Of a stretch of 35,839 nucleotides of DNA, positions 29,325 to 35,743 are shown one piece after another; position 1 is the stretch's first letter; each line of letters opens with the position of its first letter. The DNA is taken from assembly GCA_018064505.1 (NCBI GenBank), contig JAGHVC010000182.1:1-35839 (forward strand), written 5' to 3'. The position numbers and the translations under genes were made by a program. This stretch comes from Candidatus Minthosoma caballi (GTDB taxonomy: Bacteria; Bacteroidota; Bacteroidia; Bacteroidales; Bacteroidaceae). A model generated the notes under the pieces. That model ran no database searches, was not told where the DNA came from, and was given only the letters and a program-made list of their open reading frames with translations.

Positions 29325-30461
29325 TTACAAATATTTATTCAAATTACATGAAATCATTTTTGCCACTTTCGGAGTGACCTCCTCCTGACAATCATCCAAG
29401 AAGTCATCACCCAAATCATTCAGTTTCTCCTCCCGTTCATACAGAGCCATAAACTCATCATCATCCATATCGTGCGAGAAATCATCAATGTGCAAATGAT
29501 ACTGCTTCTTCGCCTCATACAGCAACTTCGAGAAATCCCTCATTCCCCACTCCTTCTTCACTACCATAGGGAATGGGCCCTCCAGCACATAAGGAGCATA
29601 GCCATTCAGAATCAGCTGAATAAAGCCGCCCTCCATCACTTCGTCAAGAATATACCGATAGCACAGCAACGAATGCTGATCAGCAGTCAGCCTATCCATA
29701 TTGTCAGCCGTAAGCGCACCTCCCACCTTCTCCAGATATCCATCAGTCACAGTCTCAATCAGCTGAGCAGGAGCCAGCTTAGCCATGCGGATCATTTCCA
29801 CCATGTCGAAAGTAAGACCCTCGAAATTCTTCATCACATGATCACACTTGTCAGCAATGTCCTCCTCGCTATTATATGTAGCCAAGCCAAAAGTGAAAAT
29901 GCCAGCCGACATACCAGCTTGCAGCCCAGTGAAGGCATCCTCAAACACCACGCACTCATCCAGCTCTGCGCCAAAAACGCTCGCCCCCTTCAGGTAGCAA
30001 TCGGGGTTAGGCTTGCTCGCCGCAAAATCCTCGCTCGTCAGCACCCTGTCAAACAAAGATCCAAACTCAGGCATCTGAGCTTCAACGCTCTGCATCTTCT
30101 TCGTGTTGGAGCTCGTCACCACGGCACACTTCACGCCCTTCGCCTTCAGCTCCCTCACAAACTCCAGAGCACCAGGCACAAACTCATACCTCATCTGCCT
30201 CTCCCACTCATCCAGTCCCGCCGTCAGCTCCCTCTGCCACTCCTCATCAGGAAAATAGCGCTCAAAAATCTGAGTCAGCGTAGTGCCCTTGATGATATTC
30301 TCCAGCCCAGGAACATCAGGTCTGTACTTCCTTGCCATCGCCCCCCAGAACACAGAATACTGTCCCTCAGTGTCGAAGAGCGTGCCATCCAAGTCAAACA
30401 AAGCCACCTTCAGCGGCTTCAATCTTTTCTCCAATATGTTTTCAGAACAAAAATCGTCCAT
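29325..30461 (-). CDS. HAD phosphatase fused to a DUF4375-like domain
   Basis: This is a 378-aa protein with two parts. Residues about 17-225 are a HAD-superfamily hydrolase of the beta-phosphoglucomutase/phosphatase type: nucleophile motif [11 protein letters not shown] (Asp23, Asp25), VTSSN, Lys150 in ASKPNPD, and acidic motif VVFEDAFTG (Asp175). Residues about 240-378 resemble DUF4375, the domain of the DNA-mimic protein DMP19, with [23 protein letters not shown] and Asn286, followed by a strongly acidic stretch ([17 protein letters not shown]). No frameshift or internal start is evident at the junction. The HAD part probably dephosphorylates a small sugar phosphate; the role of the C-terminal part is unknown. 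It is the first gene of an operon with smpB. Confidence 0.82.
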
Positions 30462-30568: not shown

Positions 30569-30618
30569 CAAACTAGTCTAATATAAAGTTCGTTTTGTTC
30601 ACTTACTATAATGACAAA

Positions 30619-30660
30619 GCGAAAAAGCCGCCTTCAATCACACAGACCGAAGGCAGCTTT
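30619..30660 (-). terminator. Terminator of the five-gene ligase/peptidase operon
   Basis: AAAGC-GCCTTC (30624-30635) pairs with GAAGGC-GCTTT (30649-30660) with one internal mismatch. On the minus strand a TTTTT tract follows, 22 nt after the last stop codon. Confidence 0.85.
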
Positions 30661-30681
30661 CATTATGCTGAGCCTATTATT

Positions 30682-31635
30682 CTATTTCCCGTTAGCCTTT
30701 ATCCTATACAGCATAGCATTCTGGAACACCATTGGACGATGATGAGAGAAGAAGATAAGTCCACCAGTATCGCTTCTCACCTCTTCAAGCACACTGCCGT
30801 TGTATGGATGAATGATGTGAGCAAGCACCTCCCCAGGAGCTACAAAGTCACCAGCAAATCGTCTTCTCACATACACGCCTGCATGATGAGCAACCACGGC
30901 TGTGAGCGAATCCTCGTCTATGTATGCCGAGTTGAATCCTGGAGACAATGTCGCCAACTCATCTGCACGAGGGCTCACCAAAGTCTGCGTGTTATATAGG
31001 AAACGCATCACAGCATCCACGGTTTGCCCAGAAGTAGTCGGGGCTATTCTATCTGTCAGTCCTGCATATATACTGAATGATGAAGTGTTCCATATTTGCC
31101 AGTTGTAGTTGAGCAAAGTTGTATCAAAAGGCAATGGTTTTCTTGTGGTTATATATGGGAATCCAAACAAGCGGGCTGTCTCCAAATCTTCGTATCCTGT
31201 GCTCAGCATTCTCACATGCGGCACAAACTCACCCGGCACATAGAACGATGCCAGCTGCATGCCATACTTGAATCCCTCAATGTGCTTGAACACCGCTGCT
31301 GCAATTCTCTGCGTTGTCTCTCCCTGATCGTAGCCAGGGAACATGCGGTTAATGTCGGTGCTGTCCATTGCCCAGAAACGCCTTCCCACATTCATAGAAA
31401 ATGGGTTGCACGACGGAATCACCAAAATACTCTTGCCGTCAGCGATCTCCCCACTGCTCTCTCGTTCCTGAAGAGCCTTAACAATTTGCGAGCAAATGTA
31501 TTGCTGCTGCACCTCATCACCACGCATAGGCCCCACAATACATGCTGTTTTTTCGCCACTGCCAAACCAGTAGCCCTCTATGCAGAAGTCATCGCGATAG
31601 GTTGACTTCATCTTGAATAATATCTCTTTTCTCAT
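30682..31635 (-). CDS. AstE/AspA-family protein with degenerate active site
   Basis: This 317-aa paralogue of the upstream gene belongs to the succinylglutamate desuccinylase/aspartoacylase (M14-like) family. The fold signatures SCNPF (75-79) and DINRMFPG (94-101) are intact, and the C-terminal domain aligns (LAHIIHPYNGSVLEEV...). The zinc and catalytic residues are not. The GxHGDE motif reads GPMRGDE with Arg38 in place of His, though Glu41 is kept. The DIH motif reads QLA (127-129), and the catalytic Glu of VVEMG is replaced by Tyr190 in SIYAG. It is therefore probably inactive as a zinc hydrolase and may be a binding or regulatory subunit. Its start overlaps the stop of the intact paralogue (ATGA, 31632-31635), suggesting a heteromeric partner made in equal amounts. 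It is the last gene of the operon. Confidence 0.85.
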   Translation of the reverse strand: MRKEILFKMKSTYRDDFCIEGYWFGSGEKTACIVGPMRGDEVQQQYICSQIVKALQERESSGEIADGKSILVIPSCNPFSMNVGRRFWAMDSTDINRMFPGYDQGETTQRIAAAVFKHIEGFKYGMQLASFYVPGEFVPHVRMLSTGYEDLETARLFGFPYITTRKPLPFDTTLLNYNWQIWNTSSFSIYAGLTDRIAPTTSGQTVDAVMRFLYNTQTLVSPRADELATLSPGFNSAYIDEDSLTAVVAHHAGVYVRRRFAGDFVAPGEVLAHIIHPYNGSVLEEVRSDTGGLIFFSHHRPMVFQNAMLYRIKANGK

Positions 31636-32621
31636 TGTTCTGCTGCTGATACTGCTTTCACTATTTCTGTTTCTTCTGCATTATATTGAAAAATACGAGC
31701 CATCAACGATCCCTCATACACAATTGGATAAGCTCGAATCGTAAAGAGGAAACCATCTATAGGAGACTTCACATCCGACAGAATCTCACCCGTCAGCGGA
31801 TTCACTATCTGCCCAATGCTTTGGCCCTTGTCCACAATCTTGCCAGAGCGCATCTCTGTCAAGAACACGCCCGAGCATTCCGCATTGAGGAAAGCCACCC
31901 TGTCACCCTTGCAGAATATTGGCTCCAAGAGCTCACCTGTCTCCATGTCAGTCAAATCCGTCTCTCCGTTCCAAATACCCATCTCCTTCATCAAGTTGAA
32001 TATACCCTTCACCAAGTGGCAGCACATTCTATGATTGATGCGTTGTCCCACACCCATCTCTACCACCAAGCAGCGAGTGCCAGTGCTGTTCAGCGAGTGA
32101 GCCAGCGTAGCCTCAAGAACCGTGGCAGCATCGTGTACCCACACGAAATCCACGCCCAAGTGCTTTGCATAAGGCACAAGCTCTTCCTCATTCAGCACAT
32201 TTATTCTCACCTGAGGCGATTCCCTCAGATACAGGTTTGACGAATGTATATCAAGTACCATGTCTGCCCCCTTCAAATCCTTGTAGATAGCAAAAGCCGT
32301 CTGCTCCACCATCGTGCCATGCTCATTGCCTGGGAAGATTCGGTTCATATCGAGGTCAAAATTAGGCACGCCACGCTGAATTGTGTCAATGCCTAAAGGA
32401 TTCAAAGCAGGATAAATCTCCACAGTGCCATCAAGCTGGTCAATATGCTTCTGCACCAGTCGCGCCATTTCGTAGCACACCATCTGGCCCTCCAGCTCAT
32501 CGCCATGAGTGCCAGTCACAATGCAGAATCTTCCTTTGCCCTTCCCATTGCTAATCACATTCTTGCGTATCAGCAATCGCTCCGCCACAGGAAGTGCGGT
32601 AGATACTATTGTCTTAATCAT
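31632..32621 (-). CDS. AstE/AspA-family zinc deacylase/carboxypeptidase, intact active site
   Basis: This is a 329-aa cytoplasmic enzyme of the succinylglutamate desuccinylase/aspartoacylase family. The frame is open from 32699, but the ATG at 32621 overlaps the upstream stop (ATGA) and starts at the conserved region, so 32621 is chosen. Zinc ligands are His39 and Glu42 (GTHGDE) and His126 (LDIHSS). Substrate-binding residues are in ALNPLG and DMNRIFPG, and the catalytic Glu188 is in LVVEMGVG. A C-terminal beta domain of the AstE type follows (CKGDRVAFLNAECSGVFL). The family removes acyl or amino-acid groups from small amides, so in this operon it may trim the amide product of the ATP-grasp ligase. 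No arginine-degradation (ast) genes are present, so AstE itself is unlikely. Confidence 0.9.
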   Translation of the reverse strand: MIKTIVSTALPVAERLLIRKNVISNGKGKGRFCIVTGTHGDELEGQMVCYEMARLVQKHIDQLDGTVEIYPALNPLGIDTIQRGVPNFDLDMNRIFPGNEHGTMVEQTAFAIYKDLKGADMVLDIHSSNLYLRESPQVRINVLNEEELVPYAKHLGVDFVWVHDAATVLEATLAHSLNSTGTRCLVVEMGVGQRINHRMCCHLVKGIFNLMKEMGIWNGETDLTDMETGELLEPIFCKGDRVAFLNAECSGVFLTEMRSGKIVDKGQSIGQIVNPLTGEILSDVKSPIDGFLFTIRAYPIVYEGSLMARIFQYNAEETEIVKAVSAAEQ

Positions 32622-33373
32622 ATTTCGTTCACTATTACTCTTATTTCTGTTTGTTGATTTATATTCATTCCTGTCACCGAGCCTCTGCTCACGGGACAAT
32701 CCTTGGCATCACGGCCATGAGCAAGCTTAATGTAGCCGTGCTCTATGCGGCAGTCATGCGTAGGGTCAAGTCCATACCAGCTGTTGCCTTCATGCACTTC
32801 TACCCATGCATGAGTAGCACCCTCGCCGACTATCAGCCCATTAACATAGCGCGCCAGCACGCCCTTTTGCCTCAGAACGGCTATCAGCACATGAGCAAAA
32901 TCCTGACACACGCCCTTTCTCTGTGCAAAAGCTTGAGCAGCAGTTGTGTGCATATCCGTCGAATTTGGCTCGTAGGCCATAATCTCATGCACAGCATGGC
33001 ACAATTCCTCTGCACTCGACGCGCTCTCTGCCAAAGCCTTCAGTTCTGCCGATGCCTCCGTCAGCGACGAAGCACAGCGGTAGTAAGGCGCAGGGCTACA
33101 GTCGGTCAGCATATACTCCGTCTGCTCTATCACTCCCGAGCTGATGTATGCCAGCGAGTCATGCTCAACAAGCGAGCTGCCTGTTATCACTCGATTGCCA
33201 AAAGCATCAGTGCCAAAATGAACGCTGAAGTCCGACGGATGCAGCACCACGCTTTCGTCCACGATGTGCTGACACTCATTGGCATAGGGCTGGCATCTGA
33301 GCTTCAAGAAGTGACGGCTCACTTGACCATAGAATCTCACGATTGTCTGATAGCTATACAAAAATCTCCTCAT
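32618..33373 (-). CDS. Transglutaminase-like cysteine peptidase
   Basis: This is a 251-aa protein with the bacterial transglutaminase-like N-terminal beta domain (FLYSYQTIVRFYG...) followed by a transglutaminase core. The triad is visible: Cys156 in KGVCQDFAHV, His188 in ATHAWVEV and Asp203 in YGLDPTHD. There is no signal peptide. Members next to alpha-E and ATP-grasp genes are predicted to act as peptidases or amide-exchange enzymes rather than classical protein cross-linkers. It overlaps the next gene by 4 bp (32618-32621). A 59-nt gap with a hairpin separates it from the alpha-E gene. Confidence 0.93.
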   Translation of the reverse strand: MRRFLYSYQTIVRFYGQVSRHFLKLRCQPYANECQHIVDESVVLHPSDFSVHFGTDAFGNRVITGSSLVEHDSLAYISSGVIEQTEYMLTDCSPAPYYRCASSLTEASAELKALAESASSAEELCHAVHEIMAYEPNSTDMHTTAAQAFAQRKGVCQDFAHVLIAVLRQKGVLARYVNGLIVGEGATHAWVEVHEGNSWYGLDPTHDCRIEHGYIKLAHGRDAKDCPVSRGSVTGMNINQQTEIRVIVNEI

Positions 33374-33388
33374 ATTTGTATTTTGACA

Positions 33389-33421
33389 ATAACGAGTTAC
33401 CGTACGGAAGCGTATCGTTAT
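33389..33421. other. Intercistronic hairpin between alpha-E and transglutaminase genes
   Basis: ATAACGA (33389-33395) pairs with TCGTTAT (33415-33421). The loop contains the self-complementary CCGTACGG (33400-33407). It is the largest gap in an otherwise tight operon and may mark mRNA processing or differential stability. Confidence 0.45.
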
Positions 33422-33432
33422 CGTTTGTTATC

Positions 33433-34131
33433 CTACACCAATACTAACTGATTAATATACTTCAGCACCTTGTTCTTATATTCAAAGTTGCTTGTGTCAT
33501 ACAGCTCTGGAGTCAGCAAGAAATCAAGCTGCGACTCAATCACGGTGTCAAACAGCCTCTTCATGCTCTGTCCGTAATTCTTAATCTCGTCATAAGCATG
33601 CTTGATGCGCTCAAATGGGTAGTCATACCTCATCAGCATGTCTATATACTCCACATTGCGACCAATGATAATCAGAGAAATAATCTTTGGGTTATGAAGC
33701 CTTTGAAACACCGAACCCCAGAATGCCAATCCCCAGTCCGTGATAGGCTGCATCAGCGTGATGTTCGATTCCTTATCCACCTTGCACATATTCATGTGAG
33801 CAATCGACATCTCAATAAATGACAGTGTTTCGCTCATGATGTCCTCACGCAACAAAATAGCATTATCCTTTGCGCAATTCATCTCCGAGATGATGCTATT
33901 CGGATTCTTCTCGTCATATAGCATTCCCAGCCTAAACTCATCAGGAGTGCTATAGCTGCCAGAAGCATCCAGTTTCTGCCAAAATTCCTCATAATCCTTA
34001 GCATCACCATCAATCATTTTGTCATAGCATTGCCTCAGCAAGTGCAATGTCATATACACTCTCTCTTCATATCGTCCAAGCCAATAAAGACGATTTGCCT
34101 TCATAGCCGAAATTGCATTAGATTTTACCAT
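33433..34131 (-). CDS. Alpha-E domain protein (DUF403)
   Basis: This is a 232-aa helical cytoplasmic protein of the alpha-E/DUF403 family. The N-terminal signature ANRLYWLGRYEERVYMTLHL (residues 12-31) is diagnostic, and AILLREDIMSETLSFIEMSI fits the family's second conserved region. Members elsewhere are about 300 aa, so this one is shorter. The alpha-E domain has no known catalytic activity but is almost always encoded next to a circularly permuted ATP-grasp ligase, either fused or adjacent, and is thought to work with it. Here it starts 34 nt after the ligase gene. Confidence 0.92.
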   Translation of the reverse strand: MVKSNAISAMKANRLYWLGRYEERVYMTLHLLRQCYDKMIDGDAKDYEEFWQKLDASGSYSTPDEFRLGMLYDEKNPNSIISEMNCAKDNAILLREDIMSETLSFIEMSIAHMNMCKVDKESNITLMQPITDWGLAFWGSVFQRLHNPKIISLIIIGRNVEYIDMLMRYDYPFERIKHAYDEIKNYGQSMKRLFDTVIESQLDFLLTPELYDTSNFEYKNKVLKYINQLVLV

Positions 34132-34165
34132 ATTTACGCTATTGAATTTTCTAGTTTATTTTTTA

Positions 34166-35497
34166 TTAATTCATCACCCAAGTATCCTTAAAACCACCTC
34201 CTTGCGAACTATTCACCACAAATGAGTCGGGGTTGCTTGCATACCTCGTCAAGCCAGATGCCCATACGCGGGTTTCCTTACCACTTACCACAAATGCACG
34301 CAAGTCTGCCTTACGCATTGAGCTATTGCCCTCAGCATCAAGCACCTCAAGATCCTTGAAATCTATCACCTCCTGCGCAATCCATCGACGAGGCTCATCC
34401 ACAATTAACTGCTTCAGTTCCTCCAGCTTCTCAGGCGTCAGTTCGTTACCAAACATCACGCCATAGCCTCCTGCCTCAGCAACATCCTTAATGACAAGCT
34501 TTTCTATGTTAGCCAATATATACTCATAATCCTCCTTGTAATAAGGCAAATAAGTAGGCGCATTCTGCAATATTGGCTCCTCATTCAGATAATATTTCAC
34601 CATCTTTGGCACGAAGTAGTAGATGCCCTTATCATCGGCCACGCCATTGCCTATGGCATTGATCAGAGCAACTCCCCCAGATTTGTAAGCCTCCATCACT
34701 CCTGGCACACCCAGCAAGCTCTCCGGCTCAAAAGTCAGAGGATCCATATATTCGTCACTCACTCTGCGATAAATGCATCCCACTCGTTGCTTCTCGTGAT
34801 ACAAGCCTTCATAGTACACCTTGCCATCCTCCACAATCAAGTCGCCAGGATAAGCAAGCGTGGCACCTGTCTTTTCTGCCAAATACGAATGCTCAAAGAA
34901 AGCTGAGTTATACCTGCCAGGAGTGAGAATCACGGCAATACCCCTATCCCCGTTCACATCATCCATCATCTGGCGCAACAGGTCGGCATAGTCACGATTG
35001 TCTGCCACGGCATTGTCTGCAAAAGCCTCTGGAGTCACCTTACGAGTCACCGTGCGTGCAATCATCGGATAGCTTGCACCGCTTGGAATGCGAAGATTGT
35101 CCTCCAGCACATACCACTCTCCGTTTTTCCCCTCAACGAGGTCAATGCCAGCTATGTGTGCATACACTCCTATAGCAGGGTCAATGCCCTCACACTCTGG
35201 CATATATCCCTTAGAAGCATAGACAAACTCCATTGGCACTATGCCGTCCTTCACAATCTTTTTCTCATGATAAATGTCCCACAAGAAGAGGTTAAGTGCC
35301 TTCACGCGCTGCTGCAATCCCTTCTCCAGATAGTTCCAGTCTTTCTTACTGATGATTCGAGGCACCGAGTCGAACGGAAACAGCTGTTCGCGAAAAACTC
35401 CTTTCTTATACACTCCGAATCGTACTCCAAAACGCTCCATCCACTTGTTGACGCTGTTTCTACTATCAACAAGAGCTTTAATGCTTACTTCTGCCAT
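34166..35497 (-). CDS. Circularly permuted ATP-grasp ligase (COG2308 type)
   Basis: This is a 443-aa ATP-grasp amide ligase of the circularly permuted type 2 family. The open frame extends to 35704, but the promoter at 35561-35591 lies inside that extension, so the ATG at 35497 (MAEVSIKALVDSRN) is the start. Family signatures are EGIDPAIG..YAHIAGIDLV, LEDNLRIPSG (131-140), ILTPGRYNSAFFEH, CIYRRVSDEYMDP, AIGNGVADDKGIYYFVPKM, KDVAEAGGYGVMFG and RAFVVSG. Related enzymes are predicted to form peptide-like bonds using ATP; no substrate is known. It is the first gene of the operon, followed by alpha-E and transglutaminase genes, the usual partners. I see no carrier or precursor peptide gene nearby. 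Confidence 0.92.
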   Translation of the reverse strand: MAEVSIKALVDSRNSVNKWMERFGVRFGVYKKGVFREQLFPFDSVPRIISKKDWNYLEKGLQQRVKALNLFLWDIYHEKKIVKDGIVPMEFVYASKGYMPECEGIDPAIGVYAHIAGIDLVEGKNGEWYVLEDNLRIPSGASYPMIARTVTRKVTPEAFADNAVADNRDYADLLRQMMDDVNGDRGIAVILTPGRYNSAFFEHSYLAEKTGATLAYPGDLIVEDGKVYYEGLYHEKQRVGCIYRRVSDEYMDPLTFEPESLLGVPGVMEAYKSGGVALINAIGNGVADDKGIYYFVPKMVKYYLNEEPILQNAPTYLPYYKEDYEYILANIEKLVIKDVAEAGGYGVMFGNELTPEKLEELKQLIVDEPRRWIAQEVIDFKDLEVLDAEGNSSMRKADLRAFVVSGKETRVWASGLTRYASNPDSFVVNSSQGGGFKDTWVMN

Positions 35498-35560: not shown

Positions 35561-35591
35561 CAAAGATATACATTTTGCAATACATATACAA
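35561..35591 (-). promoter_or_regulatory. Promoter of the ligase/peptidase operon
   Basis: On the minus strand TTG (35591-35589), a 20-nt spacer and TATCTTTG (35568-35561) form a full promoter. Transcription would start near 35554, leaving a leader of about 57 nt before the ATG at 35497. Confidence 0.75.
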
Positions 35592-35694
35592 TTTTCAAAA
35601 GCAAAATGTCGTAATATAATACTATTTTCTTTCGTTTTGACACAAAAATAAGCATTATGCGAAAGTTTTATCAACGAATCATGCCAACAAAGAC

Positions 35695-35743
35695 GCATCA
35701 TCAAGGGATCACATCATCAGGGGGGCTAAACCCTTGATGATGC
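35695..35743. repeat. 13-bp inverted repeat with a duplicated left arm
   Basis: GCATCATCAAGGG (35695-35707) is perfectly complementary to CCCTTGATGATGC (35731-35743). A near-copy of the left arm, CATCATCA followed by six Gs (35712-35725), lies in the loop and could pair with the same right arm. It may be a terminator or attenuator of a transcript entering from beyond the window. Confidence 0.7.

Follow-up and report, generated by a model that had tools for sequence, protein, structure and literature searches.

The window analysed here is a stretch of 35,839 nucleotides, the whole of contig JAGHVC010000182.1 in the 3.2 Mb, 88% complete genome of Candidatus Minthosoma caballi (assembly GCA_018064505.1; Bacteroidales), and carries on its minus strand, at positions 30682-35497, five consecutive open reading frames (ORFs), called A to E in what follows, which form one operon. 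The first, A (34166..35497, 443 aa), is a circularly permuted type-2 ATP-grasp ligase that matches the Pfam family PF14403 at 466.7 bits against a cut-off of 32 and has as its sole solved relative at 0.01 or better 3n6x (1e-116), labelled a putative glutathionylspermidine synthase. It is followed by the short alpha-E protein B (33433..34131, 232 aa), which matches PF04168 at 64.3 bits (cut-off 20.8) over only profile positions 6-163 of 294, and by C (32618..33373, 251 aa; PF01841, 60.3 bits), a transglutaminase-like cysteine peptidase/amidase with the residues Cys156, His188 and Asp203. The last two genes both belong to the AstE/AspA fold, D (31632..32621, 329 aa; PF24827, 81.3 bits) being a zinc deacylase with His39, Glu42, His126 and Glu188 and E (30682..31635, 317 aa; PF24827, 34.0 bits) a pseudoenzyme without the zinc site.

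An earlier sequence-only reading had named these families and had described five genes with one promoter, one terminator and two ATGA overlaps, an arrangement that is confirmed. Intergenic gaps of 34 bp (A to B) and 59 bp (B to C) are followed by 4 bp ATGA overlaps of the C stop with the D start (32618..32621, minus strand) and of the D stop with the E start (31632..31635, minus strand). The promoter TTG-N20-TANNTTTG (35561..35591, minus strand) lies 63 nucleotides 5' of the A start codon and is of the Bacteroidetes type; its pattern has five matches in the window against 0.70 expected, with the spacing fixed post hoc on the operon site itself. An intrinsic terminator hairpin (30610..30675, minus strand; -32.1 kcal/mol, z -5.8, then T's) stands 3' of E. 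A general consensus scan of the window listed neither operon promoter nor terminator because it is designed for other signal shapes. As the A start codon is located 342 bases from the contig end, the upstream neighbour of A is out of view. No candidate for a carrier-peptide gene is present among window ORFs of at least 60 aa, the size from which ORFs were listed.

The five-gene order is widely conserved. A pattern-based scan of 84,980 species, each represented by one genome, yielded 129 relatives of E, of which the best 80 were kept as loci; 66 of these 80 possess the full A-B-C-D-E order (64 clean and two, L058 and L106, with one gene read as two ORFs), and at each of the 80 the genes found share one strand. 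Contig ends can explain 12 of the 14 incomplete loci; for L070 this explanation relies on the spacing of C and D in relatives, which is 0.9-1.5 kb. Among the 64 clean loci, 4-bp overlaps join B to C in 22, C to D in 28 and D to E in 22, approximate counts as ORF starts were set mechanically. The five-gene loci belong mostly to Bacteroidales and Clostridia, with the window E 46-52% identical to its counterparts at Clostridia loci, and the operon occurs in records named as cultured strains, Succinivibrio dextrinosolvens DSM 3072 (L068) among them. In a search of 61 genomes, E and full-length A were found in exactly the same 13, the window's own included, and in all 13 C lies between A and D on one contig; one extra genome (G050) has a weak partial match to A (1.9e-5). 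The order is thus kept across phyla and the two AstE/AspA genes are not confined to the window genome, which supports a joint system, as the sequence-only reading had proposed subject to such a survey. Literature searches, beyond the reach of which lay the text of Iyer 2009, found no description of the five-gene set.

Some loci deviate in detail. In L058 (Bacteroides mediterraneensis An793) it is gene A that is split into two ORFs (L058:4203-5518), five Lachnospiraceae 'Lapin' bins (L064, L065, L066, L069 and L071) have an extra ORF, P-loop-like by eye, between C and D or before D, L214 has a 285-aa ORF between C and D, and L063 is preceded by a gene that looks transposase-like by eye.

While both members of the D-E pair had been taken for zinc-deacylase family proteins, this assignment holds for D and fails for E. 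Residues were counted in the rows kept after a length filter, window included (A 63, B 69, C 69, D 76, E 79; L049 and L076 were left out for E). The zinc and catalytic columns of D, His39, Glu42, His126 and Glu188, are intact in 76/76 rows and in 8/8 further sequences, and D shares the zinc site and the family of the DoeB/EutE structure 6twm. E retains the overall AstE/AspA fold, likewise resembling 6twm, as well as Asn96/Arg97 of the DxNRxFPG motif and Glu41 (79/79). In all 79 rows, though, the column of the first zinc histidine is arginine (Arg38), the catalytic glutamate is replaced by tyrosine in 76 (Tyr190 in the window) and by phenylalanine in three, and the second zinc histidine falls on a gap in the profile alignment, one row (L104) having a histidine at the neighbouring column 127. 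The His-x-x-Glu, second His and catalytic Glu that make up the zinc site are therefore missing as a set and E is no zinc deacylase; it is more likely a zinc-free binding partner than an enzyme. D is in turn not assigned to the DoeB/EutE enzyme itself, since it scores 70.5 bits against TIGR02994 (N-acetyl-diaminobutyrate deacetylase), the cut-off of which is 402.7. A tree of D versus E places D on one side of a branch with support 95 and E on one side with support 0; no rooting is claimed from it, as 8 of the 14 outgroup rows were faulty (four dropped, four short fragments).

The triad columns Cys156, His188 and Asp203 of C are kept in 69/69 rows. B, which is modelled with confidence as an all-helical protein (pLDDT, the predicted local distance difference test score, 91.9) and has no structural match in the PDB at E 0.001 or better, measures 213-250 aa in 69/69 rows from operons with D and E, as compared with 308-356 aa in 16 other A loci.

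These other A loci show that the operon consists of two separable modules. CP_ATPgrasp_2 matches occur in 152 of 395 genomes sampled from the window's phylum, and of these, 20 A loci from other Bacteroidota, picked over many genera, were read. Neither D nor E stands beside A in any of the 20; 16 have a recognisable B and four show none, and in at least two (L180 and L188) a gene for Anbu (PF00227) sits between B and C. Conversely, among 295 genomes searched in the order of L075 (a Lachnospiraceae locus whose title reads Brotaphodocola catenula), E is present in 29 and full-length A in 23 (two with one stop inside the match), with both in 22 and on the same contig in 20 of these. Seven of the 29 genomes with E lack a full A, one of them (G751) having a 39-position A fragment, and G719 alone, where A lies close to a contig end, has A but no E. 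D directly precedes E at all eight loci fetched, the seven without full A and one with A. A Mailhella bin (L087) possesses the D-E pair (L087:3712-5570) without A-B-C in the 3.7 kb visible upstream, and its genome has no CP_ATPgrasp_2 match. E is accompanied by D wherever the contig is long enough, L049 and L102 beginning inside or at E. The occurrence of A-B-C without D-E and of D-E without A thus refines the earlier notion of a joint pathway, in that the shared order across phyla stands in its favour while an obligate five-step pathway is weakened.

With respect to distribution, an operon tree (quick method, midpoint root) was built with 62 rows: the window plus those 61 of the 80 loci that have every gene at full length, which leaves out 19. 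Bacillota and Bacteroidota rows form two blocks with support 100; two gammaproteobacterial rows of the Succinivibrio type fall within the Bacteroidota block, where their inner placement is weakly supported (82), and one bin labelled Chloroflexota falls within the Bacillota block. This bin, L091, titled Thermoflexaceae, groups with a Eubacteriaceae record and is possibly mislabelled. In the 395-genome phylum sample, E has matches at 0.001 or better in 67 genomes, the window's own among them, the best apart from the own genome at 5e-13 and 25% identity, which is the generic AstE/AspA level; as this sample contains only five other genomes of the window's order, four of them in its family, it shows E to be rare in the remainder of the phylum. 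Where locus titles name a source, it is, by eye, animal gut, rumen or faeces and in no case a free-living one, so that E appears to mark a gut-associated subset. A mobile origin was considered and rejected, as plasmid records gave no match to E at 1e-10. Four unannotated 'Bacteriophage sp.' records from human faeces match E, in two places each, and may be bacterial DNA; the one fetched is marked UNVERIFIED.

The neighbourhood of the operon is more variable. An ammonium transporter gene lies 23-58 bp 5' of A in five loci (L033, L035, L036, L038, L040) and a POR-family ferredoxin oxidoreductase gene 3' of E in seven (L033, L034, L035, L037, L038, L040, L041), both assigned with Pfam on the L033 copy. 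Those of these loci that are present on the operon tree fall in one Prevotella-type clade, alongside members without the transporter (L037, L044, L048). A Peptidase_C26 gene is found 36 bp 3' of E in L095 and a glutamine-amidotransferase-like gene 3 bp 3' of E in L036. Clustering of the flanks of the 80 loci revealed no gene family kept with the operon, the largest cluster comprising 14 loci at scattered positions, and the idea that neighbour genes reveal the operon's function was rejected as the flanks are mixed outside the Prevotella-type clade. An anti-phage defence system was likewise rejected, PADLOC giving only one 13.7-bit match (C to NsnC) and none for A, B, D or E. In the window itself, an ORF at 29325-30461 on the minus strand encodes a fusion of a HAD-type phosphatase with a DMP19 domain (PF13419 and PF14300), and an inverted repeat seen by eye at about 35694-35743, near the contig end 5' of A, consists of a GCATCATCAAGGG-like arm and its complement.

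Expression data from relatives point to nitrogen. In Pseudomonas putida on nitrate compared with ammonium, PP_2685, called a bacterial proteasome beta subunit, rises by 4.44 log2 and the ATP-grasp gene PP_2688 by 3.99 log2 (PMC8050072, excerpts), and the A-B-C-type cluster of Burkholderia cenocepacia drops by 6.0 to 9.4 log2 without NtrC (PMC5491218, excerpts). A marine metagenome study ties the A-B-C domains to urea metabolism (PMC3597751). As for candidate substrates, the isoaspartyl dipeptidases of Firmicutes and Bacteroidota are described as still undiscovered in the excerpted text of PMC10206079. Cyanophycin synthetase (TIGR02068) is over cut-off in none of the 13 operon genomes, all 13 having partial matches below it, and the control matched in 14/14 with one over cut-off; cyanophycin made by the cell itself is therefore an unlikely substrate, and a cyanophycin system was rejected on this ground.

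The reading of the operon that we favour, tentatively and at a little below even chance for the whole of it, is a nitrogen-responsive system of amide synthesis and hydrolysis in two modules, with D as the hydrolase and E as its zinc-free partner. The first module, A-B-C, would be the amidoligase core of an Anbu-type operon, in which A would use ATP to activate a carboxylate as an acyl phosphate and then join it to an amine, B would serve as a helical partner, and C, either a thiol hydrolase or an acyltransferase, would work on bonds of the type that A makes. The second module, D-E, would occupy the place held by Anbu in some relatives; D would belong to the DoeB/CphZ branch of zinc amidohydrolases and split an N-acyl or isopeptide amide to free an amino acid, and E, in a putative D:E complex, would probably bind the substrate or gate D. 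The likely setting would be nitrogen limitation, with a nitrogen-bearing amide or short isopeptide being made and later reopened. A bolder extension, credible but unlikely as a whole, is a nitrogen-storage or buffering system of gut anaerobes that is neither cyanophycin nor protein tagging, where A would make, under nitrogen control, a soluble amide or isopeptide, catalytic D and a substrate-sensing E would reopen it, and Anbu would be one of several interchangeable hydrolases of the amidoligase core.

Several observations weigh against the favoured reading. Neither module needs the other. The nitrogen responses would carry over by analogy, as they come from relatives without a known D-E pair; the excerpts of PMC5666114 interpret the P. 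putida Anbu response as higher protein turnover and report unchanged expression under several other conditions. The adjacency of the ammonium transporter is confined to one clade that includes members without it and may thus represent a single event, and operon neighbours elsewhere are mixed. The ATP-grasp relative of Yersinia has been demonstrated only to free phosphate from ATP, and pull-downs with Yersinia Anbu-operon proteins gave no specific contact (PMC6376114, excerpts).

Attachment of a short peptide or amino acid by A to protein side chains, to be trimmed or removed by C and D-E, would be in line with the A-B-C core being that of the Anbu operon, since a tagging role has been put forward for the latter (PMC6376114, PMC5666114, both in excerpt). 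We nevertheless judge such tagging distinctly unlikely, as the closest characterised relatives of D, DoeB and CphZ, have small N-acyl amino acids or dipeptides as substrates, the window ORFs of at least 60 aa include no carrier candidate and the own genome at its 88% completeness has no match to Anbu. The D-E pairs without full A in the seven genomes of the L075 order and in Mailhella, together with the lack of free-living sources among those named in locus titles, are also compatible with scavenging, where D-E would break down an N-acyl amino acid or isopeptide supplied to the gut by diet or host, with A-B-C as a linked salvage or re-acylation route; this is unlikely though worth keeping in mind, as apart from single loci and one clade no transporter accompanies the operon, and the union with the ligase in 66/80 loci would be left unexplained.

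That D-E and A-B-C are two unrelated functions joined under one promoter for co-regulation only is suggested by each module being found without the other, but becomes quite improbable considering that their order is kept over the deep divergence of the window from the Clostridia loci, as measured on E, and that C and D overlap by 4 bp in 28 of the 64 clean loci, within the accuracy of mechanical starts. The lowest probability, a slim one, is given to a pathway in which A would produce a specialised metabolite or modified peptide and C and D would mature it. Such products are made by ATP-grasp ligases of other families, but the flanks of the 80 loci hold no family that travels with the operon, and conservation as broad as this, across phyla, would set it apart from most such clusters.

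The replacement of Anbu by a hydrolase family acting on small N-acyl amino acids and isopeptides narrows the search for the substrate from proteins to small amides, and D and E together offer a simple two-protein assay. With identical site loss in 79/79 copies, beside an active paralogue wherever the contig permits, E provides a clean case for the role of dead deacylases.

Among known systems, the cyanophycin dipeptide (beta-Asp-Arg) hydrolase CphZ (8ein/8eip) differs in its genomic setting, as cyanophycin synthetase over cut-off is missing from the 13 operon genomes, and the DoeB/EutE N-acetyl-diaminobutyrate deacetylase (6twm) shares family and zinc site with D and the fold, without the zinc site, with E. 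The NtrC-dependent cluster I35_5080-83 of B. cenocepacia (DUF404/407, DUF403 and transglutaminase) has A-B-C-type genes in common with the window operon, but includes a second, large transglutaminase-like protein and, in the excerpts of PMC5491218, no AstE/AspA pair is named. The closest counterpart is the Anbu operon (ATP-grasp, alpha-E, transglutaminase, Anbu), a gene set described by Iyer 2009 as cited in PMC6376114 and PMC5666114 (excerpts), so that the sequence-only reading rightly considered ATP-grasp, alpha-E and transglutaminase a recurrent set. No proposed role of this operon had been confirmed by 2017 according to the excerpted text of PMC6376114, where Anbu peptidase activity was undetected with the substrates tried. 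The PF14403 ligase, the alpha-E protein and the transglutaminase-like Cys-His-Asp protein are present in the window in the same families and the same order, with a B shorter than in the other A loci and with no match to PF00227 in the operon or the own genome (control matched in 10/14). The operon is thus a variant of the Anbu-type amidoligase operon, in which the position of Anbu is taken by a zinc amidohydrolase together with its zinc-free paralogue.

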